Shown here piece by piece: positions 49,329-62,364 of a DNA stretch of 64,000 bases. This DNA is from Rhizobium jaguaris (GTDB taxonomy: Bacteria > Pseudomonadota > Alphaproteobacteria > Rhizobiales > Rhizobiaceae). The DNA is taken from NCBI RefSeq assembly GCF_003627755.1, contig NZ_CP032694.1, forward strand, positions 2,967,501 to 3,031,500, given 5' to 3'. The notes beneath the pieces were generated by a model that saw only the letters and a program-made list of their open reading frames with translations, made no database searches and had not been told where the DNA came from. The translations under genes and the position numbers were made by a program. Positions within the stretch are counted from its first letter, which is position 1, and every line of letters starts with the position of its first letter.

Positions 49329-49405
49329 GCACCCGTAGCTCAGCTGGATAGAGTGTTGGATTCCGATTCCAAAGGTCACAGGTTCGAATCCTGTCGGGTG
49401 CGCCA
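49329..49405 (+). tRNA. tRNA-Arg (anticodon CCG)
   Basis: The 77-base gene starts GCACCCG and ends CGGGTGC-G-CCA, giving a perfect 7-bp acceptor stem and an encoded CCA. The D arm is GCTCAGCTGGATAGAGT, the anticodon arm TTGGA-TTCCGAT-TCCAA with anticodon CCG, and the T arm ACAGG-TTCGAAT-CCTGT. It reads CGG codons. The island of foreign-looking genes begins straight after it. Confidence 0.96.
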
Positions 49406-51592: not shown

Positions 51593-53791
51593 TCAGCGAG
51601 GTGCCATCATCATGTCGTAATGCGCGGATTGCTCCGTAACAGCGAAAACCTGTTTGAAGACAGCCAAGAAACGTTCGACGGTCGTGGAATCACAAGCAAG
51701 ATAGAGGTCTTCGTAGGCGTTGTGTGATCCGTCGTTTACCCAAGAGAACAGCGAATTGCAGATCTGTTGATCCTGACCGACGAATTTGTCGATAATCTTG
51801 TCCTTGTCCATATTTCCGAGGATCGTGAAATAGTTTTCCAGGATCCGCCTGAGCGTGTTTTGGATTGTGAGCATCGAACGGTTCTCATTTCGAACCTCCT
51901 GCCAAAGCATCTCGTAGGAGGTGCGTATCGGATTATGGAGGTGGCCCTCGATGACGGAATAATCGTCTTTCTTCCTGACAACCCAGAACGTCTCGAAATT
52001 TCGCCTCTCACCACCCGAGCGCTTCGGATCGAATGCGACTTCCTTGTGAAAGTAGATGTTGTGGGTCAGGACGAAAACTTGCTTCAACGTCGAAGCTGGT
52101 TCTTGCACCTTCGCGAACAGCTTCTTGATCAGGCTGCTCACGATGAACAGAATGTCGCTGTCCAGGCTGGAAACCGGGTCATCGATCACCACGATCCGGT
52201 TCGTGGTTATGCCGCTTTCGGAAACGCTGCCGCTGATAAGATAATAGAAGTAGAGAAAGACGATGAAGGTCTTCTCACCTTCGCTGAGCGTTTCTCGGGC
52301 TTCTGAACCATCACTCCGGATAACCGTATAAAATCGGTCGCCTTCGTGAGCTGTGGCGAGTTTGAAGTTCCGGAAGCCAAACGAATCCAGCAGGCTATTA
52401 ATAGCGTTCACTGTCGGCTGGACGCTGGTTACCTGCCTTTCAAGCTCCTGCAGCCTCGCCGATTTCTCATTCCTTTCTCGCTCTTTTGCGGCAATGCCGG
52501 TTGTCAGGCCGGAAATGGCATTTGTCAGGGCCAATCGAGCAGTCTTGTACGCCTCCAGAGGCAGCTTGGCTTCATCAACGATATAACGCCAAATTTCCGA
52601 AATCAGCTTTTCGCGCTCAGAGACGATGTTATCGATTAGCGCATTGTGAGCATCAATTTTCTGGTTCGCCTCAGCGGCGATAGCGTTAAGGGTGTCGATT
52701 GTTGCTGCAACCCCTTCCAAGATTATCTTGACGCTCGGCTCAGCTCGCTTTCTGCCAATATGCTGTGCGTTCAAGCTGAGCTTGGTGCGAAGTGCCTCCG
52801 CGGTTTGTTCGAACAATGGCCTGTCGAGATATTCCGACTGGACGAGAAGCACCGCGTCAAGTTGGCGGATGATGCTTTTGGAATGTTCGTCGTAAGCGGT
52901 GGCTATGCCGGCAATAGCATCAAGGTCGCGTTGATATGTTTCGTCGAAATACGCCTCAAGATCGTGGCGGAAGGCATCATCTGTAGTTTGCTGGCAAAAG
53001 GGACAGCAGTCCCCGTTCTGATGAAAATATCCGAGGCCCTGCTTTACCCAATCGCTGTTTCCAAGGCGCTTGATCATATCTGCTATGGAAACGTCCTCTT
53101 TGCCAACCACACGCTTGTCGAGAATAGCAGCAGCCTCTAGCGCCACAATTTCCGATCCCGGGATGTCCGGAAGGCGATCCTGGCGCAGCTTGACATCAGC
53201 AAAAATAGTGGCGGCTCGGGTCTCCAAATCATCTTGCGATTTGAGGTCGACCGAATTGCTTTCGAACTCAGCAAACATGCGGTCGGCGAAATTGGCTCGG
53301 GAATTCAGAACCCCGCGAAACGCCTCACGAAACTTGTCCTCGTGCTTAAGCTTGGTTTTCCAGCATGCCTCTTGAAAATTGGTATTTAAATCGTGCAGTT
53401 CTTTGCGCTTTCCTCCATTGCCATCCGGCCCCTCTAGCGTATGCTTTCTGGCCCGGATAGTGTTCGAGACGTCATCGATGTCTTTCTTTAGGTCTTCAAT
53501 CGCTTGTAGAACCGCAGCGTCTTCATGACCAAGAGTGAATATGCCTCGCATCCGAGCAGTGAAGTTTTCTTCAATGAAGTCGCGATTGTACACAAGGCAT
53601 TGGAGCGGCGACCGACCTGCCCAACTGACGGCACAGTTGGCATAGGTCTCTGGTTTAGCTATCACTCGTGAGAGTGTAGTCTTTCCCGAGCCGTTGGCGC
53701 CGAATATGAAGTTCACCGACCTCAATTCAGAAAGAACCGCAGCACCTCCAGTGTAACTCGCCACGCCATCGATGGATATCTGTTCAATCAT
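51593..53791 (-). CDS. RloC-like ABC-type ATPase, candidate anticodon nuclease
   Basis: The 732-residue protein belongs to the AAA_13/PrrC-RloC group. Walker A is GANGSGKTT (31-39). A long coiled coil interrupted by a zinc-hook CPFC (263-266) follows. The ABC signature LSEGEK (502-507), Walker B VVIDDPVSSLDSD (about 534-546) and the H-loop LTHN (about 575) come next. The C-terminal region holds R648-x3-E652 in RRILENYF and H690 in WVNDGSHN, matching in order the Arg-Glu-His triad of PrrC/RloC anticodon nucleases. Such enzymes cut tRNA on phage infection. Their activity here is untested. Base use is unlike the core chromosome. Confidence 0.75.
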   Translation of the reverse strand: MIEQISIDGVASYTGGAAVLSELRSVNFIFGANGSGKTTLSRVIAKPETYANCAVSWAGRSPLQCLVYNRDFIEENFTARMRGIFTLGHEDAAVLQAIEDLKKDIDDVSNTIRARKHTLEGPDGNGGKRKELHDLNTNFQEACWKTKLKHEDKFREAFRGVLNSRANFADRMFAEFESNSVDLKSQDDLETRAATIFADVKLRQDRLPDIPGSEIVALEAAAILDKRVVGKEDVSIADMIKRLGNSDWVKQGLGYFHQNGDCCPFCQQTTDDAFRHDLEAYFDETYQRDLDAIAGIATAYDEHSKSIIRQLDAVLLVQSEYLDRPLFEQTAEALRTKLSLNAQHIGRKRAEPSVKIILEGVAATIDTLNAIAAEANQKIDAHNALIDNIVSEREKLISEIWRYIVDEAKLPLEAYKTARLALTNAISGLTTGIAAKERERNEKSARLQELERQVTSVQPTVNAINSLLDSFGFRNFKLATAHEGDRFYTVIRSDGSEARETLSEGEKTFIVFLYFYYLISGSVSESGITTNRIVVIDDPVSSLDSDILFIVSSLIKKLFAKVQEPASTLKQVFVLTHNIYFHKEVAFDPKRSGGERRNFETFWVVRKKDDYSVIEGHLHNPIRTSYEMLWQEVRNENRSMLTIQNTLRRILENYFTILGNMDKDKIIDKFVGQDQQICNSLFSWVNDGSHNAYEDLYLACDSTTVERFLAVFKQVFAVTEQSAHYDMMMAPR

Positions 53792-53935
53792 ATCCTGCCT
53801 CCGAACTCCCGGCCGAAATATACGCGTAAAACGCGATCAATCAAACCGGTAAATACAACGAAAAACAGTGAAAGGATCGGTGTAGGAAGGCAAGGATGTC
53901 ACCACGTTGGGGGCACTCCCGGTCTGCGAAAGTTG

Positions 53936-53943
53936 GCGCTTTC
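53936..53943 (+). repeat. Target-site duplication of IS66 (left copy)
   Basis: GCGCTTTC stands directly left of the element; the same eight bases follow its right end at 57092-57099. IS66 elements make 8-bp duplications. Confidence 0.9.
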
Positions 53944-54003
53944 GTGAGCGCGACGAACAGCCCACTGTTTTCGGCGTTGACGGGATCGCAATAGCACTTT
54001 CTT

Positions 54004-54567
54004 TCAGAACTTCTGCTTTGCCCTTTTCGGCATAAAGTAGGTTCGGATATTGACGAGCGCTTCGGCGACGGCAGCAGCATCCTGGCGGGTGGCTTTCCGT
54101 TTTGTCTCGCCGAGCTTGCGGATGGGCGCGATGATATCGCCAGTGACGGCATGACCTCGAAGGACCGGCTGCCAAAGCCTCGGCGCGTATCCTGTTCCCA
54201 GCAGAAAGCAGAGATCCCAATCGAATGGATCAAAGGTCTGATCATCGATCCTGGTGAACTTGGGCCGGTGGTCTTTCGGCGTTTCGGAGAGGCTTGCCGA
54301 GATACGGTTGTACTCTGCAACGATCGTCTGCACGGCCCGATGTTCGATTGTTTCCATCGGCAGATTCAGGGCGTCCGGACCGGTCAGTTCCGGGATCCAC
54401 TTGCGTGGGTCGATGAACTTTGGGCCGATGATGAGAGCCGTGAGATAGCCATCGAGACCGCTCATTGACCAGATAGGCGATGGCGGACGACGTTTCCTGA
54501 TAAAGGCTTCGAATGCGTCGTCATCGAGCTTCGGTCGCGGCGTCATCTCCTGGCTGTTCTGTGTCAT
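54004..54567 (-). CDS. UPF0149/YecA-like protein carried by IS66
   Basis: The 187-residue protein resembles the UPF0149 (YecA) domain: DDDAFEAFIRKRRPPSPIWSMSGLDGYLTALIIGPKFIDPRKWIPELTG. The start overlaps the tnpC stop (ATGA), so it is translated with the transposase. It lies inside the IS66 ends, so it is a passenger or accessory gene of the element. Its function in transposition is not known. Confidence 0.8.
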   Translation of the reverse strand: MTQNSQEMTPRPKLDDDAFEAFIRKRRPPSPIWSMSGLDGYLTALIIGPKFIDPRKWIPELTGPDALNLPMETIEHRAVQTIVAEYNRISASLSETPKDHRPKFTRIDDQTFDPFDWDLCFLLGTGYAPRLWQPVLRGHAVTGDIIAPIRKLGETKRKATRQDAAAVAEALVNIRTYFMPKRAKQKF

Positions 54568-56138
54568 GCCGCTTGTCGCTCCTGCTGTGTCATCGCTTCG
54601 CGCTCCGCCTTCCAGGCCCAAGGCAAAAGGCTCTCCATCTCGTTGGCTTTCACTTTGCCGGAGATGATGCGCTCCAACACATCGGCAAGCCAGACGTCGG
54701 GGTCCACGCCGTTAAGCTTTGCCGTGTTGACGAGCGATGCCAGAACAGCGAAGGACTTTCCACCCCGCTCGTTGCCCACGAATAATGAGTTCTTTCTCGT
54801 CAGAGCCACGGATTTCATTGAACGCTCGACGACATTGGAGTCCACCTCGATCCGGCCATCCTCCAGGAAGGCTGTCAGTCCGCTCCAGTGGTTGAGCATG
54901 TAAGTGACTGCCTTGCCAAGTGCCGATTTCGACGACACCTCGTCGCTCAGTTCGGTGAGATGGACCTTCAGTTCTCTCATGATGGGAGCTGCCTCACGAC
55001 GCCTGCCGCTAAGCCGGGTATCTTCATCTTCCCCTCGTAGTTTTGCTTCGATGCGATAGATTTCGGCAATCCTGGCAAGGATCGACAAGGCCTCCGAAGA
55101 GCCGGTCAGCTTGACGACATCGACGAACTTTCGCCGGGCGTGGGCCAGGCAGAAGGCCAGCCGCATGGGGGCAACGTTGCTCTTGCCGCGTCGTTTGACC
55201 ATGGTTTTATAGGCTTGGTATCCATCAACCTGAAGCACGCCGGCAAACGACGACAGTTGCCCCTCAACCTCGCGAGCGCTGCGGCTTTCGGCAAAAGTAT
55301 AGGCCACCGCCGGTGGCGCCGGACCATTCCAGGGGCGGTCGTCAACTGCTTGCGCCCATAACTGGCAAAGCTTGGTTCGTTTGCGCCCCGGATCGAGGCG
55401 CGGCAACGGCGTCTCATCACAGAACATCCTCGGCTGCGAGCGGATGAAGGCGAGTAGCTCGTTATAGAGAAGTTCTAGCCACCAGGCGACCCGCATGACC
55501 CAGGCGCCGAGTGTGCCGCGATCGATGATGACGCCGCAGGAGGCCAGCATCTGGGCCTGGCGATTGAGCGGGAGATGCCAGGCAAACTTCGAAACAGCGA
55601 CATGCGCGGCAAACGCCGTGGTCACCATGCCACCATCCATCACGCGCGCTGGTGCCGGCGCCTGCACAACAACGCTTTCGCAAGCCCGGCATGCGTAGCG
55701 CGGCCGGATCGTCCGTTTCACCCGGACAACCGCAGGCACGATGCCGAGCGCCTCGCTGACATCAGCGCCGATGCAATGAAGTTCGAACGAACAGCAGGGG
55801 CAAGTCTTGCTCTCCGGCTCGATGACCTCGTCATAACGCGGAAGGTGCTTGGGCAAGCGGCCGATATTGCGGGCTGGCGATCTCCGTGCCTGCGTTTTGT
55901 CGTCATCGACTGGCGCGACATCGTCATTGGCAGCAACGGGAATGTCGCTTAGATCGCCAAGATCGAGCATTGCCTGCGTCGGATCGAGCACCGTCATCTT
56001 CTCCGATTTCGTCCCGAAGAGTTGGCGCTCAAGGAAGGCCACGCGCGCTTTGAGATCGGCATTCTCTTCGTTGAGCGAGAGAATGATCCGGGTCAATTGC
56101 GCAGCATCCTGGGGCAAGGGATCGGGTCGAAGCGGCAT
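54564..56138 (-). CDS. tnpC: IS66 transposase TnpC
   Basis: The ~524-residue transposase has an N-terminal leucine-zipper-like segment (LTRIILSLNEENADLKARVAFLERQLFG), a zinc-finger-like CPCCSFELHCIG, and a DDE region with QVDGYQAYKTM and LAHARRKFVDVVKL, ending in the IS66 C-terminal NSLFVGNERGGKSFAVLASL. Both length and motifs look intact. I place the start at 56138 (MPLRPDPLPQD); the frame extends to 56171. Confidence 0.93.
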   Translation of the reverse strand: MPLRPDPLPQDAAQLTRIILSLNEENADLKARVAFLERQLFGTKSEKMTVLDPTQAMLDLGDLSDIPVAANDDVAPVDDDKTQARRSPARNIGRLPKHLPRYDEVIEPESKTCPCCSFELHCIGADVSEALGIVPAVVRVKRTIRPRYACRACESVVVQAPAPARVMDGGMVTTAFAAHVAVSKFAWHLPLNRQAQMLASCGVIIDRGTLGAWVMRVAWWLELLYNELLAFIRSQPRMFCDETPLPRLDPGRKRTKLCQLWAQAVDDRPWNGPAPPAVAYTFAESRSAREVEGQLSSFAGVLQVDGYQAYKTMVKRRGKSNVAPMRLAFCLAHARRKFVDVVKLTGSSEALSILARIAEIYRIEAKLRGEDEDTRLSGRRREAAPIMRELKVHLTELSDEVSSKSALGKAVTYMLNHWSGLTAFLEDGRIEVDSNVVERSMKSVALTRKNSLFVGNERGGKSFAVLASLVNTAKLNGVDPDVWLADVLERIISGKVKANEMESLLPWAWKAEREAMTQQERQAA

Positions 56139-56186
56139 GACAGACCCTACCATATGAGTCTGAATCTTCAAGCAAAACCAATAGGA

Positions 56187-56543
56187 TCAGCCTGCTTTTG
56201 AGGGCCTTCTCACCGCGTTTCGTTTGACCCTCGTCCAGTCAATGCCGGCCAGCAAAAGCGAGAACTCCTGGGCACTCATCTGCATCGCGCCATCGCAGAT
56301 CGGCGGCCAAACGAACTTTCCGCTTTCCAACCACTTCGTTGCCAGGATCATGCCGGATCCGTCCCAATAGATGCAGCGCAGCCGATCGAGACGCTTGGCG
56401 CGGAACACAAAAACATCGCCACAATACGGATCAGCAGCAAGCGCCGAAGCCACCAATGCCACCAGGCCATTCATCCCGCGCCGGAAGTCGACAGGTTGCG
56501 TCGCAATCATGATCTTCACGCCATTTGGCGAAACTCCGATCAC
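56187..56543 (-). CDS. tnpB: IS66 accessory protein TnpB
   Basis: The 118-residue protein has the IS66 Orf2 pattern: IMIATQPVDFRRGMNGLVALVASALAADPYCGDVFVFRAKRLDRLRCIYWDGSGM. It is needed with TnpA and TnpC for transposition in this family. Its start overlaps the tnpA stop by four bases. Confidence 0.93.
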   Translation of the reverse strand: MIGVSPNGVKIMIATQPVDFRRGMNGLVALVASALAADPYCGDVFVFRAKRLDRLRCIYWDGSGMILATKWLESGKFVWPPICDGAMQMSAQEFSLLLAGIDWTRVKRNAVRRPSKAG

Positions 56544-57010
56544 CGGCGTCCTCGCAACGCCGCCACCATTGCTTGTGCCAGCTCAGGCGCTACCGAACCG
56601 ATAACCGTCATGCGCGCGCCGGCAATCTCGATCTCAATCCGGCCAGCAAGAACCTCCGAGGCATTCGATGGCGAGCCTTCGTGTCGTGCGCCATCCCCAA
56701 CCACTGTCACCGGCACGAATACGGCAGGCGGCAAGCTGGCCTTTGCCGACCGTTGAGAGGTTAGTCCGGCATCCCGTCGCCACACATTCAGCAAGCCGCG
56801 ATTGACGCCCCAGCGCCTCGCAACAGCCGAAATGTTCACTTCAGGTTCTGCGCTCTCCGCGAGAATCCGCGCCTTCTCCTCGTCAGTCCAATTCCGCCGC
56901 TGCCGCCGACCGGTGATCATCTCGATCCGCCGATACTTTCCCTCATGCCTGGCTTCATGCATGCCTTCATCCATGACTTCAAGCATGGCATCAGCGCGAT
57001 CTCCAACCAT
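56540..57010 (-). CDS. tnpA: IS66 accessory protein TnpA
   Basis: The 156-residue protein has a helix-turn-helix of the transposase-8 type: RRNWTDEEKARILAESAEPEVNISAVARRWGVNRGLLNVWRRDAGL. The N-terminal 20-30 residues are poorly conserved, so a shorter start is possible. It is the first gene of the element, 60 bp from the right inverted repeat. Confidence 0.9.
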   Translation of the reverse strand: MVGDRADAMLEVMDEGMHEARHEGKYRRIEMITGRRQRRNWTDEEKARILAESAEPEVNISAVARRWGVNRGLLNVWRRDAGLTSQRSAKASLPPAVFVPVTVVGDGARHEGSPSNASEVLAGRIEIEIAGARMTVIGSVAPELAQAMVAALRGRR

Positions 57011-57091
57011 CCCGGTCCACTCCTATCAATGATAGAGCTTATCTCGCGGCCTCATTCACAAAAGAAAAGGTGGGCTGTTCGTCGCGCTCAC

Positions 57092-57099
57092 GCGCTTTC
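57092..57099 (+). repeat. Target-site duplication of IS66 (right copy)
   Basis: GCGCTTTC matches the left copy at 53936-53943. The 65 bases from 57100 to 57164 are pre-insertion DNA before the IS21 element. Confidence 0.9.
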
Positions 57100-57295
57100 A
57101 GGCCGATCCAGATAACCGTTATGATTTTGGTCCTCAATCCCGCGATGCAGTTGCACCACCTCGAAGAGTTGCCGATTCCGATGAAGCCGCCCCTTTGTTC
57201 CGAGATGATTGCGCCCCTTGATTCCGGGATGATCTCGCCCCCTGTTTAGTGGGGTCTGCAGGCGATGATTGTTGTCAGTCCATTTAGGCGGGGTG

Positions 57296-58033
57296 TCAAG
57301 CTTTTCGGGGCAGGTTTCGGCGTAGGCTATCGCCGCTCAATTCGATGCGATGGGCGTTGTGAACGAGGCGATCCAGGATGGCATCAGCATAAGTCGGGTT
57401 TCCTATGACGTCGTGCCATGCCGACACCGGAAGTTGGCTGGTAATGATGGTTGATCTGCGGCCGTAGCGATCTTCCAGGATTTCGAGGAGGTCGTGCCGG
57501 GCCTGTTCGTTGAGCGGTTCGAGACCCCAGTCGTCGAGGATCAGGACTTGAACATGGCCCAGGGTACGTTGCAGCCGAGCATACCTGCCGTCGCCGCGAG
57601 CAAGTGCGAGCTGAGCAAACAGTCGTGGGACACGCTGATAGAGAACGGAACGATCGTCACGGCAAGCCTTGTGGCCGAGAGCGCAGGCTAACCAGCTTTT
57701 TCCGACACCCGAGGGTCCGCAAATGGCCAGATTGTCATGAGCGTTGATCCAGTCGCCGCCGAGCAGCTTCATGAAGAGCGCGCGATCAAGGCCGCGCTCG
57801 CTGCGGTAGTCGACATCTTCCGGGGTGGCCTGGTGGCGAAGCTTGGCAAACCTGAGGCGTGCGGCAAGCTTACGATCGTAGCGGGAACTCCACTCCCGTT
57901 CGAGCAGCAGTCCTAGCCACTCGGCATGCGAGAGATGTTCGGCTTCGCCGTTGGTGACGAGCTCCCCGAAGGCCTTTGCCATGCCGGCCAGGCCCATGGA
58001 ATTGAGTTTGTCGAGTGTTGGATGGGCAAGCAT
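57296..58033 (-). CDS. istB: IS21 helper ATPase IstB
   Basis: The 245-residue AAA+ ATPase has Walker A GPSGVGKSWLA (about residue 108) and Walker B LILDDWG (about 170), with RLEIEDRYGRRSTIITSQLPVSAWH-type family features. It helps IstA choose and load target DNA. It follows istA by 12 bp. Confidence 0.95.
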   Translation of the reverse strand: MLAHPTLDKLNSMGLAGMAKAFGELVTNGEAEHLSHAEWLGLLLEREWSSRYDRKLAARLRFAKLRHQATPEDVDYRSERGLDRALFMKLLGGDWINAHDNLAICGPSGVGKSWLACALGHKACRDDRSVLYQRVPRLFAQLALARGDGRYARLQRTLGHVQVLILDDWGLEPLNEQARHDLLEILEDRYGRRSTIITSQLPVSAWHDVIGNPTYADAILDRLVHNAHRIELSGDSLRRNLPRKA

Positions 58034-58045
58034 TCTTTGTTCTCC

Positions 58046-59596
58046 TTAGTGGTAATAGCGAGGTCCACGGATGTTTTCGTGTTGGATAGGCTCATGCGAA
58101 GGTGGTCCATTGGTGGAGGCGGCTCGATCGAGATGATTGTCGAGGATGGAGCGCACCGAACCGTAGGTCCGGGCCCCGATCTCAAGCGCACGGCTGCAAG
58201 CAGCGTTCACTCTGTCGCGGCCAAAGCTTTTGTTCAGGCGGATAATTCCCATGCAGGCTCGAAAGCCCTGCTCCGGGTGCGGCCTGTCGGCGAGGATCTT
58301 CTCACACAGCAATGCAACCTCCGGCCCGATGGAAGAGGCCTCGCGTTGAATGCGTTCGATCGTCCAGTCGGCAAAGCGGCGGTGGGCCGAGGGCATGTGA
58401 TCGGGGATTGTGGTGTGCTTGCCGTTACCGCTGGAGCGGCGATGAGCGGCTATTCGCTCGCCTTTGTGGAATATCTCGATCGTATTGGCGGTGATGCGCG
58501 CCTCGACTTGCTCGCGAGCAAAGCGATAGGGAACGGAGTAATAATGCCGCTCGATCTCGACGTGGTAATCCAATCCAGCACGCCGGATACGCCATTCCGC
58601 AAAGACATAGCGTTCAACGGGCAATGGCCTTAAAGCGGGCCGGTCGAGCTCTTCGAACAATTGGCGGCGCGTGACGCCAACCCGGCGAAGGACACGCCTG
58701 TCGTTCAAATCATATAGCAAGTCGGCAATCGCCGCATTGACTTCGGCCAGACTGTAGAAGGTGCGATGGCGGAGGCGGCCCAGCAGCCAACGCTCGACGA
58801 TACGAACCGCAGCCTCGACTTTCGCCTTGTCGCGGGGGCGTCTCGGCCTCGTCGGCAGGACGGCGCTGCCATAATGCGCTGCCATCGCGCAATACGTCCG
58901 GTTGACCTGGGGATCGAAGTGGCACGCCTTGATGATCGCCACCTTGGCATTGTCGGGAACCAGCAACGCCGGCGCACCGCCGAAGAACTCCAGCGCCTGA
59001 ACATGGCATTCGACCCAGTCCGGAAGCGTCTCGGTCCAGCGCGCCTGCGCGAACGAAAGACTGGATGCCCCCAGGACAGCGACAAATAAATGGGCCTGCC
59101 GTGTTTTGCCCGACAGCCGATCAACGACAACAGTGACCGTGTCGCCGGCGTAGTCGACGAACAATTTGTCGCCCGCCATATGATCCTGCCGCATCGTCAC
59201 CGGCAGCTTCAACGCCCAGCCGCGATAGAGGTCACAATATCGGCTGTAGCGGTAACCATCGGGATAACGGCTTATGTATTCGTCCCAGAGAATTTGCAGC
59301 GTCACGTGCTTGCGCTTGAGCTCGCGATGGACTTGCACCCAGTCAGGCTCCGGTGCGCGACGATGACCCGTCTTCGTCCCAGCCGCACGGTAGAGCGCCG
59401 CCTCCAGGACGGCATCACTCACGTCATCATCCAACGGCCACGAAAGCCCCGCAGCCGCCGCCCGTCGCAGCGTCTCGCGCACCGTCGAGGCTGCTGCTCC
59501 GACCCGAACCGCAATCGATTTGTGGCCCAGCCCTTGCTCGGACCGATATCTCAGTATCTCGCGGACACGCCGCATCTCCAGTCTCTCCGCAGGCAT
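58046..59596 (-). CDS. istA: IS21 transposase IstA
   Basis: The 516-residue transposase has an N-terminal helix-turn-helix (RVREILRYRSEQGLGHKSIAVRVGAAASTVRETLRR) and an rve DDE core: D in KLFVDYAGDTV, D in LLVPDNAKVAIIKA, and E in KAKVEAAVRIVERW. C-terminal DNA-binding segments follow. It looks complete. Confidence 0.95.
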   Translation of the reverse strand: MPAERLEMRRVREILRYRSEQGLGHKSIAVRVGAAASTVRETLRRAAAAGLSWPLDDDVSDAVLEAALYRAAGTKTGHRRAPEPDWVQVHRELKRKHVTLQILWDEYISRYPDGYRYSRYCDLYRGWALKLPVTMRQDHMAGDKLFVDYAGDTVTVVVDRLSGKTRQAHLFVAVLGASSLSFAQARWTETLPDWVECHVQALEFFGGAPALLVPDNAKVAIIKACHFDPQVNRTYCAMAAHYGSAVLPTRPRRPRDKAKVEAAVRIVERWLLGRLRHRTFYSLAEVNAAIADLLYDLNDRRVLRRVGVTRRQLFEELDRPALRPLPVERYVFAEWRIRRAGLDYHVEIERHYYSVPYRFAREQVEARITANTIEIFHKGERIAAHRRSSGNGKHTTIPDHMPSAHRRFADWTIERIQREASSIGPEVALLCEKILADRPHPEQGFRACMGIIRLNKSFGRDRVNAACSRALEIGARTYGSVRSILDNHLDRAASTNGPPSHEPIQHENIRGPRYYH

Positions 59597-59867
59597 CCCG
59601 TTCCTTCCTTGTCATCATTGACGGAAGGAACTTCACACCGGCAGAACACCCTTGCCACATCCCTCCGTAGGGGGCGGCATCATCTCGGAACAAGGGGGCG
59701 ACTAATTCTCGGAATTGGGGGGCGACATCATTTCGGAATCAGGGGGCGGATTGCCTCGGAATTTGCAAAGAGTTGCACCGCGGCGTGCCTACCGATTGCG
59801 CCGTCGTTGACAGAGGGGCCTTTGCAGGTGCCCAGAAGTAGCAAATATTTCGGGAAATTAAGGAATC

Positions 59868-60536
59868 TTATTTCGGCGCCGTCGCCAGCCAATGGTCGTT
59901 TATAGCGCGATCAACGATGGCCCGGATCGTCGGCTGGTCGAGGTCGGGAAACAGATGTTGCGCAAGCGCAGTGCGTTTGCCAGTGCCCACCTTGGGTCCA
60001 TTAAAGCGAGAATCTCCCATTAGCTGCTTGGCCTTGAGAATAATGGTCTTTTCTTTGGCGGCTTGCAGTTCCCTCTCGCTGATTTCCTGCTGTTGAAGCA
60101 GTTCGGTCACCAACTGCTCAATCTCGCCTTCAAATTCCTCCAACCAATCGGTCTGTTCAATAGCGCGATGTAAGATGCCATCGCACATCAAGCCCGCGGC
60201 CACACGGCAGGCCTGGCCATCGTGGCTGCGCCATATCGCAATAATCTTCTTGGCTTCTGGAAGGTCGCTAATGTCGTCCTCTTCGAAGTTGTCGCCGAGT
60301 TCTTCCGCCGCATCAAAACTGGTGGTGATGAGATAGACGATTTTTGGCTTGGCATGCCTTATAAGATTAAGAAACTCGCCAAATGAAACAGATGCGATGA
60401 ACCCGCCTCTGCCTTCCACGGGCAGCACCGCTTCCAGCAATAGCGCGCCGCATTCTGCCGCGGCCTCTTTCAAATCATTCGCAAGGCGGTCGATATCTGC
60501 AGTATCCATGACCTGTGTCCAATATCGAGGCTGCAT
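59868..60536 (-). CDS. Hypothetical protein of the restriction/exclusion cluster
   Basis: The 222-residue (or 213 from the ATG at 60509) acidic, soluble protein has an N-terminal alpha/beta part (IASVSFGEFLNLIRHAKPKIVYLITTSFDAAEEL), a long charged helix likely to be a coiled coil (LEEFEGEIEQLVTELLQQQEISERELQAAKEKTIILKAKQLM) and a C-terminal segment (TIRAIVDRAINDHWLA). No family is recognised. It is ~106 bp after the methyltransferase-nuclease gene on the same strand. Before the insertions it was also in line with the RloC-like gene. Confidence 0.6.
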   Translation of the reverse strand: MQPRYWTQVMDTADIDRLANDLKEAAAECGALLLEAVLPVEGRGGFIASVSFGEFLNLIRHAKPKIVYLITTSFDAAEELGDNFEEDDISDLPEAKKIIAIWRSHDGQACRVAAGLMCDGILHRAIEQTDWLEEFEGEIEQLVTELLQQQEISERELQAAKEKTIILKAKQLMGDSRFNGPKVGTGKRTALAQHLFPDLDQPTIRAIVDRAINDHWLATAPK

Positions 60537-60642
60537 GGCTTGTTATAATCAATCAGTGCGAGCATCTAAAGATGGCCCCTCTGCCGTGGAGTCTTTAAGT
60601 TCCTGTCTACGCAAGAAAACCAACACGGCAGTTCCTCTATCT

Positions 60643-62364
60643 CTAAAGCAATCGTTGATCTTGCTCTGCTTCCCGCGCTGCTGCTGGATTGAAATGTACA
60701 ACAACATCGTCTGATTTGCTGCCCGTAAACGAAAAAGCAAATTCCGGAGCATTTGGATCTGGTCGCCGGATCGCTTTAGAGACTTGCCGCTTCTCCGGCT
60801 GAAAGAACTCTCGGGATATGTGTCCGAGCGATGGGAGTGCTGGACGAACGCCCTTGAACCACTCGCCGATCGTGACGATTTGAAGCCGGGGAAGATGGCC
60901 GTGAGCTGTATCAACAAAACCGAACGACGCCGCTTCGGCTCTCATCTCACGAGTGGCTTCATGAAGACAGATAAAGAGCCCCATTTCCGCGCGTTCGCGG
61001 TCGATTACAGCCTTGAACTCTCTGACGTCTTTTGCCCCGACATGCTGCCCACCTTTCACTGATGTTAAGATCCGGCCCCAGCCGCGTGGACCGTTCATAA
61101 AATACATCTCGCCATCGATGCCGCGATCTGGTCCCTTTTTTGTTTCTTTCAGCGCTTGCACTCCGACCAGATAGTTCGCCCACCACTGAAACTGAAACTT
61201 GTCCTTCAACGCCAAACGTTCAGCGCTGAGAAAATCTCTCGGTATTCCCCCGACATCATAGGCAGCATTTGGATTCAATCCTCGGATCCGATTCTCAATG
61301 ACCTTGATCGCGTGAAAGGCAACATCGATTCCCACCCACTGCCTTTTAGCAATCTCCGCTGCGGCTATCGTCGTCCCGCAACCACAGAAAGGATCGAGGA
61401 CCACTCCTCCTTCAATTGTAGCAGCACTCAGAATTCGGTTGAGGAGCTTTACCGGCTTTTGAGTGGGGTATCCGAGCCTTTCGCGCGCTTGCGAGTTAAG
61501 CGGGGGAATATCTGTCCAGACATCACCAAGCGGCATCCCTCGTTGCTCGTCCAAATAACGCTTTAGGCGTGGCACTCTTCCTGGTGCTGATTGATGAATC
61601 AAACCAGCGAGAAATGCTTCCTCCATTCGGCTTCTCGTCCAACGCCAAACGCGCGTGACGCCCAAGAACTCGTATGTCAGATTTGGGCGGTCGTGATTTG
61701 GATTTAGAAGATTGTCAAGCTGATACTTTCTGCCATCGCCATCGTCGTGAACGTACTTTTCCGCAATGGACGGCGGAAGGTTATTCAGATCATATGGCTC
61801 GTACAATTCATCGCTGTTCCAGGTCCATTCTCTCCCTTTTGCAAAGCTCAAAATTACATCGTGATTGTTGGGAAGCCGTCTGGTTGACAGCGACTTGCCC
61901 GTGCTTCTCTGCCATATTATTTCGTTGGCAAATTGCTCAGGTCCAAAAATGGAATCCAGAACGATCTTCAGATAGTGGCTCGCCGTTGCGTCACAATGCA
62001 AAAAAAGTGATCCGGTTGGCTTTAAGACGCGCCTCAACTCGTGAAGACGTTGCGCCATCATAACGAGGTAAGCCATCATGTCGCTTTCGCCCAGAGCTGC
62101 GTGCAACGCATGGATAATGGCGGCAACGCTACCACCAGTTCGCATCAACTCATCAAATGCCCACTGCGCCTCGCTACCCCAAGTCCAAGTATCTCGGAAC
62201 GCCTCAACCTGAGCACTCGCAGCCTCGTCGGCCGGAGTTCGAAAAAGTACGTTGTAGTTCGCGTTACTGTTGAATGGTGGGTCAAGGTAAACAAGATCCA
62301 CGCTTTCGCTCGCGATTTCTTCCCGCAATATAGTCAGATTGTCCCCAAACCAAAGTTGATTCAT
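60643..62364 (-). CDS. DNA methyltransferase fused to an Mrr-like nuclease domain
   Basis: The 573-residue protein opens with a beta-class N4/N6 methyltransferase: the catalytic DPPF at 28-31, then the target-recognition part, and the SAM motif DPFCGCGTT at 324-332. After about residue 385 a second domain follows with GPDRGIDGEMYF (D413, D417) and ILTSVKGGQ (S435-x-K437), the PD-(D/E)xK pattern of Mrr-like restriction nucleases. Thus one polypeptide probably modifies and cuts DNA. The recognition site is unknown. It is an island gene and not part of the core CcrM. Confidence 0.85.
   Translation of the reverse strand: MNQLWFGDNLTILREEIASESVDLVYLDPPFNSNANYNVLFRTPADEAASAQVEAFRDTWTWGSEAQWAFDELMRTGGSVAAIIHALHAALGESDMMAYLVMMAQRLHELRRVLKPTGSLFLHCDATASHYLKIVLDSIFGPEQFANEIIWQRSTGKSLSTRRLPNNHDVILSFAKGREWTWNSDELYEPYDLNNLPPSIAEKYVHDDGDGRKYQLDNLLNPNHDRPNLTYEFLGVTRVWRWTRSRMEEAFLAGLIHQSAPGRVPRLKRYLDEQRGMPLGDVWTDIPPLNSQARERLGYPTQKPVKLLNRILSAATIEGGVVLDPFCGCGTTIAAAEIAKRQWVGIDVAFHAIKVIENRIRGLNPNAAYDVGGIPRDFLSAERLALKDKFQFQWWANYLVGVQALKETKKGPDRGIDGEMYFMNGPRGWGRILTSVKGGQHVGAKDVREFKAVIDRERAEMGLFICLHEATREMRAEAASFGFVDTAHGHLPRLQIVTIGEWFKGVRPALPSLGHISREFFQPEKRQVSKAIRRPDPNAPEFAFSFTGSKSDDVVVHFNPAAAREAEQDQRLL

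Follow-up and report, generated by a model that had tools for sequence, protein, structure and literature searches.

Insertion history of an RloC-type anticodon nuclease gene and its upstream neighbours in Rhizobium jaguaris

Do defence-type genes that stand side by side make up one defence system? The question is raised by a 64,000-nucleotide stretch of Rhizobium jaguaris DNA (contig NZ_CP032694.1, positions 2,967,501 to 3,031,500; hereafter the window), in which a gene for a methyltransferase with a nuclease-like domain (M), a gene of an unnamed family (B) and a gene for an RloC-like ATPase follow one another on the minus strand, with two insertion sequence (IS) elements between B and RloC. 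The first-pass annotation of this DNA proposed that the three genes had been one unit combining DNA restriction and tRNA cutting. Our verdict is that the IS history is real, that the genes around it are ordinary defence-island genes, and that no combined system is demonstrated. The explanation that we favour, and consider probable, is a low-GC island of separately acquired defence-type genes which happen to stand in tandem: M would be self-contained, RloC would stand alone, B would go with Rad50-like ATPases, and the IS elements would have arrived later.

Gene order before the two insertions

All three minus-strand open reading frames (ORFs) are open, in the order and at the coordinates first assigned to them. 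Between B and RloC lie an IS66-family and an IS21-family element. The IS66 element is flanked by identical 8-bp copies of GCGCTTTC, at the boundaries given by the first-pass annotation, and copies of the element on plasmids of other rhizobia start and stop no more than a few bases away from these boundaries. The IS21 element had been correctly placed between B and RloC, but the ends assigned to it (57169-59768) and its 4-bp duplication had to be corrected. Because full-length copies in the same genome match exactly bases 1-2598, we set the ends at 57170 and 59767; the element then has TG...CA ends and a 6-bp duplication, AAGAGT. Counting this one, the genome has 10 such full-length copies, about 100% identical, a sign that the element multiplied there recently; one further copy is 87% identical and another is split.

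Exactly matched duplications at the ends of both elements are no chance pattern. Excision of both elements joins remnants of 152, 70 and 94 bp into an ancestral B-RloC spacer of 316 bp, close to the earlier estimate of about 310 bp, and the target duplications at both elements agree in supporting the proposal that M, B and RloC were contiguous before the insertions. Two IS elements common in rhizobia would have landed later in this spacer, without breaking a gene. The case shows how IS footprints allow an earlier gene order to be reconstructed, and why order by itself is not enough to make a system.

Up to a tRNA-Arg (ccg) gene (49329-49405) the G+C (GC) content is 61-63%; immediately beyond this gene it drops to about 49-54%, and some 10 kb past M it is back at 61%. 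M (51.5%), B (53.6%) and RloC (51.1%) share the low value, and the IS elements have 59-60%. We read the locus as part of an accessory island some 23 kb long, which starts in the rhizobial chromosome immediately behind the tRNA-Arg gene. No repeats of the tRNA end that could serve as attachment sites of the island were found in the stretch searched, its right side included. A DNA search with positions 40000-62832 returned 353 records, none of them covering 80% of the query.

Table 1. Features of the M-B-RloC locus (window coordinates)
Feature	Position	Strand	Basis
RloC-type anticodon nuclease gene, 732 amino acids, intact	51593-53791	-	Pfam, PADLOC, motifs
RloC-side spacer remnant, 152 bp, ending in the 8-bp duplication GCGCTTTC	53792-53943	.	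Flank comparison
IS66-family element of 3148 bp; UPF0149 passenger gene at 54004-54621	53944-57091	-	Identical 8-bp flanks GCGCTTTC
Second copy of the IS66 duplication	57092-57099		Flank comparison
Middle spacer remnant between IS66 and IS21, 70 bp	57100-57169	.	Flank comparison
IS21-family element (istA, istB), 2598 bp, 6-bp duplication AAGAGT	57170-59767	-	
Second copy of the IS21 duplication	59768-59773		Flank comparison
B-side spacer remnant, 94 bp	59774-59867	.	Flank comparison
Gene B, 213 amino acids, ORF extendable to 60536	59868-60509	-	Starts of relatives; AlphaFold2 model
Gene M, 573 amino acids, methyltransferase and Mrr/PD-(D/E)XK-like domain	60643-62364	-	Pfam, conserved residues

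Bases 1-60 of the IS66 element (53944-54003) are absent from the matches to other copies in the same genome, which start at base 61; the plasmid copies of other rhizobia match from the very first base. The passenger gene, of the UPF0149/YecA type, is also present on the rhizobial plasmid copies. A literature search of limited coverage found no paper on IS66 together with UPF0149.

RloC and the methyltransferase-nuclease

The description of the ATPase as RloC-like held up. The protein matches Pfam AAA_13 (E = 3.9e-183) and PADLOC PDC-S06 (E = 1.1e-281) and has the motifs of an ABC ATPase: Walker A GANGSGKT at 31, the signature LSEGE at 502, Walker B IVVIDDP at 533 and the linchpin His in THN at 576. 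A zinc hook, CPFC (CXXC), at 263 lies between Walker A and the signature, that is, in an insert splitting the ATPase domain. The anticodon nuclease triad R648-E652-H690, with a Ser before the His, fits the published pattern R-X3-E-X36-52-H, and the length of 732 amino acids falls within the published 658-897 (PMC2610378; this paper and PMC3874168 are cited throughout from the parts available to us). The same motifs were found in eight RloC relatives checked alongside. On sequence grounds the protein qualifies as an RloC, and the family gains a rhizobial member that shows every sequence hallmark. Its sequence has no match among those of the PDB, and the matches listed for RloC with Rhizobium in the same limited literature search were, by title, environmental surveys.

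By sequence, the protein shares the split ABC ATPase, the CXXC zinc hook and the triad with RloC of Geobacillus kaustophilus and Acinetobacter baylyi. Its gene differs in position, standing after a methyltransferase-nuclease gene and B, neither of which is mentioned in the available parts of the published descriptions (PMC2610378, PMC3874168).

The mechanism first suggested for the locus was borrowed from PrrC-EcoprrI, a tRNA-Lys nuclease silenced by a type Ic restriction-modification (R-M) enzyme. Carried over to the window, it would have M restrict foreign DNA and keep RloC silent, with B linking or regulating the two; once restriction was beaten, RloC would cut tRNA. The PrrC precedent speaks for such a cassette, as do the shared order and strand of the genes and the 316-bp ancestral spacer. 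The window protein has the catalytic triad and ABC ATPase motifs of PrrC, but it is twice as long and contains a zinc-hook insert (PrrC has 341-416 amino acids and no zinc hook; PMC2610378). M, for its part, is one chain with a single beta-order methyltransferase and has no hsdR/M/S genes near it: scans with protein-family libraries recognised no hsdR, hsdM or hsdS among the window proteins near the locus. With 133 bp between M and B and 316 bp between B and RloC, the genes are not packed as tightly as in an operon.

The published record, as far as it was available, also separates the two nucleases, in that a tie to a restriction enzyme is described for PrrC and not for RloC (PMC2610378, PMC3874168). 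Davidov and Kaufmann found RloC linked to type I or III R-M genes in 8 of 73 cases (PMC2610378). Acinetobacter RloC is activated by an inducer of DNA breaks in R-M mutants as well; it has an internal break-responsive switch, broken DNA being sensed through the Rad50-like part and tRNA then cut (PMC3874168). RloC so described needs no R-M partner. In R. jaguaris, too, RloC may well act on its own as an anticodon nuclease: its ATPase, Rad50-like and with a zinc hook, would sense broken DNA and unleash tRNA cleavage without M.

The 152-bp remnant next to RloC has, by consensus scans, a single promoter-like match and a single terminator-like match, both on the minus strand. Upstream of RloC such matches were in small excess over shuffled sequences; around M and B they were about as many as in the shuffles. 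In one Rhizobiaceae genome (L054:5359-7446; L numbers denote the loci compared) the next gene downstream of RloC codes for an nSTAND3-type NTPase (PADLOC PDC-S73) that carries a weak Mrr-like domain.

Residues 1-365 of M form a beta-order N6/N4 DNA methyltransferase (PF01555, E = 3.1e-42). Its C-terminal part (about 400-490) is Mrr/PD-(D/E)XK-like, with NA-iREase1 (PF22722, 'inactive' by name, E = 1.2e-7) matching just ahead of Mrr_cat (PF04471, E = 2.6e-7). In 120 aligned homologues, among the matches listed, the methyltransferase motifs DPPF (28-31) and FCGCGT (326-331) are at least 99% conserved, D417 and K437 are kept in 100% and S435 in 98%. An active nuclease in M is plausible, though unproven, because D417 and K437 are invariant in these homologues. 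M looks like a self-contained single-chain methyltransferase-nuclease, a candidate R-M enzyme which would modify DNA and may cut it on its own. In joining a methyltransferase and a predicted nuclease in one polypeptide it resembles the single-chain type II R-M enzymes (Type IIC). Classical type IIG/IIC enzymes carry the nuclease domain N-terminally, whereas the nuclease-like domain of M is C-terminal and Mrr-like.

On a plasmid of S. fredii GR64 a relative of M is annotated as two consecutive pieces (L075:6117-7695), so this copy is probably broken. The gene adjoining M in the window (from 62833, reaching to L009:2309) encodes a 491-amino-acid protein with a TniQ domain (PF06527); no TnsA, TnsB or TnsC was recognised in the neighbouring ORFs scanned around it.

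Distribution of M, B and RloC among genomes

The three genes were sought in family- and class-level genome samples, in which only few candidates per genome were scored, and in the compared loci, whose ORFs are longest-frame predictions, not annotations. RloC was found in 6/394 family-level (E <= 1e-30) and 2/385 class-level genomes (E <= 1e-60), M in 7/394 (E <= 1e-100) and 8/385 (E <= 1e-90), respectively. In both samples the two genes occurred together in the R. jaguaris genome only. With a six-sequence profile B was detected in one of 297 order-level genomes, again that of R. jaguaris, and a scan of genome contigs yielded 15 further B loci. None of the 15 B-bearing genomes (E <= 1e-80) and none of 55 Rhizobium genomes gave a match to M; both searches were wholly empty, and such a return carries little weight when no positive control accompanies it, though the same query had found matches in the family- and class-level samples.

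Neighbourhoods gave the same picture. Neither B nor RloC turned up in the 19 further M stretches, of which 13 come from 12 genomes and 6 from plasmids, and M was absent from 19 other RloC stretches and from the 17 B loci read (15 from genomes, 2 from plasmids). A DNA search with B plus M matched four plasmid records, inside M only. Outside its own genome M was thus found with RloC or B in no genome examined, and the proposal of one combined restriction and tRNA-cutting unit is not supported. When related Rhizobiaceae were checked for the three genes together without the IS elements, no second example appeared. Relatives lacking this gene order, which had been set beforehand as refuting the proposal, did appear: in Rhizobium freirei and Rhizobium ASV20, whose RloC proteins are the closest relatives (74% and 75% identity), divergent predicted ORFs lie upstream of RloC, with neither M nor B there. 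M as a PrrC-like silencer of RloC was rejected, as no second example was present among the genomes examined. We regard the cassette as very improbable.

R-M genes in general are another matter. Eight of 294 matching plasmid records were read around RloC, and in four of them an annotated R-M system lies within 6 kb (type I twice, Eco57I/PaeR7I-like, and type ISP); two of the others are without R-M genes and two are barely annotated. This company of several R-M types had counted in favour of the cassette, but the types differ from M. RloC keeps company with R-M genes of many types, not with M, and because of the four plasmid records a general RloC/R-M link is possible.

The same four records belong to a group of observations that weigh against a chance tandem, most of which concern B and RloC. 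RloC was found in 2/55 Rhizobium genomes, the same two that carry B. It was present in 5/15 B-bearing genomes (E <= 1e-30) as against 6/394 and 2/385 in the background samples (Fisher p 7e-6 and 2e-7, with thresholds that differ and genomes that are not independent). B lies 9.7 kb from RloC on one contig in R. freirei, and directly before RloC, at 31 bp, in one Caulobacter lineage. The closest relative of B (P0002, 70% identity) is on a metagenome contig outside the loci compared. Co-occurrence of the three families elsewhere, which the first-pass annotation had made a test of its proposal, thus came out negative for M with either partner and positive for B with RloC.

An FtsH-like AAA/M41 gene followed by a gene for a 198-amino-acid protein lies 7-9 kb beyond M (L009:7151-9763). 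Relatives of this pair are neighbours of B in R. freirei (L072) and ASV20 (L012); in G595 (L055) they have RloC nearby. The pair was considered as proof of a cassette and rejected: it is also present, at 93.7% DNA identity, in Rhizobium sp. CB3171 (L083), where the stretch read gave no match to M, B or RloC, so it is simply a common accessory.

The B family and its neighbours

The ORF of B encodes 222 amino acids from 60536; the alternative start at 60509, which gives 213, is more likely because relatives begin there. No match was found in Pfam, PADLOC, NCBIfam or PHROG, all 32 aligned members giving only scattered weak Pfam matches, or among PDB sequences. The AlphaFold2 model has a mean predicted local distance difference test (pLDDT) score of 89.5, and in a single structure comparison no solved structure matched the whole chain. 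The family has at least 116 members at E <= 1e-3. Viral contigs searched with the B alignment gave 22 pattern matches, none confirmed, and phage records searched with the Sphingopyxis B gave none.

The unnamed family adjoins DNA-end genes and, in some cases, RloC. Genes for a WYL-domain protein and SbcD are close to B in 10 of the 15 genome loci (L014, L015, L016, L018, L019, L021, L022, L023, L024, L025) and beside it on a Caulobacter plasmid (L002). SbcC was seen in 9 of these 10 genome loci; in L014 the contig ends before it. Among the remaining loci L020 retains part of SbcC, a contig end truncates L017, and L011, L012 and L013 show no WYL-SbcD. B follows SbcC directly in Caulobacterales. 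The sphingomonad loci have 1.5-2.2 kb between B and WYL, and in most of them a DUF6035/CoiA-like gene occupies this interval. A literature search of limited coverage for the WYL domain, SbcCD and defence systems found no paper. WYL-SbcD-SbcC accessory modules are thus regular neighbours of B in Caulobacterales and sphingomonads, but B of the window is without them: WYL, SbcC and SbcD had no match there. From this company B may assist Rad50-like ATPases (SbcCD-type, that is, Mre11/Rad50-like DNA-end genes) or travel with them.

A rival to the favoured explanation makes B and RloC a two-gene unit, in which the zinc-hook ATPase would have B as its loader, sensor or silencer, and M would be a bystander; the B family would serve Rad50-like ATPases generally, and depending on the lineage these would be SbcCD or RloC. 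The WYL-SbcD neighbourhoods and the RloC count in B-bearing genomes agree with this, and so do two tight arrangements: SbcC-B-RloC in Caulobacter, with spacers of 9 and 31 bp, and, in Phenylobacterium, a zinc-hook PDC-S06 ATPase other than RloC at 20 bp from B. The Caulobacter loci L002 and L025 count, however, as one event, because their B proteins are 99% and their RloC proteins 98% identical. B is missing from 16 of the 19 other RloC stretches (the exceptions being L002, L025 and L071), and the window has no SbcCD or WYL. Nor is the slot behind B in Caulobacterales reserved for RloC (L002, L025): it can be taken by SIR2-HerA (L024) or by another zinc-hook PDC-S06 protein, in convergent orientation (L022). 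The divergence of B and RloC also looks out of step between the window and R. freirei, at 41% identity for B and 74% for RloC, compared with 87% and 85% between R. freirei and ASV20. In ASV20 itself B is on a different contig and RloC at a contig end. On balance, we consider the two-gene unit unlikely.

A bolder form, which we find quite unlikely, takes the B family as a dedicated accessory of zinc-hook Rad50-like ATPases that serves SbcCD in Caulobacterales and sphingomonads and was handed over to RloC, so that SbcC-B-RloC and B-RloC loci would couple the detection of DNA ends to tRNA cutting. If it were true, the window would hold a rhizobial B-RloC pair with the methyltransferase-nuclease as a source of breaks. 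The link of B with SbcCD and with RloC is the lead that deserves follow-up: if real, it offers a route to asking how RloC recognises broken DNA, for which published work leaves the partners open.

One locus, in a Caulobacterales metagenome-assembled genome, shows what else can follow B: a SIR2-HerA defence pair (L024:10541-13572) stands directly after WGR-WYL-SbcD-SbcC-B, in the slot held by RloC in L002 and L025.

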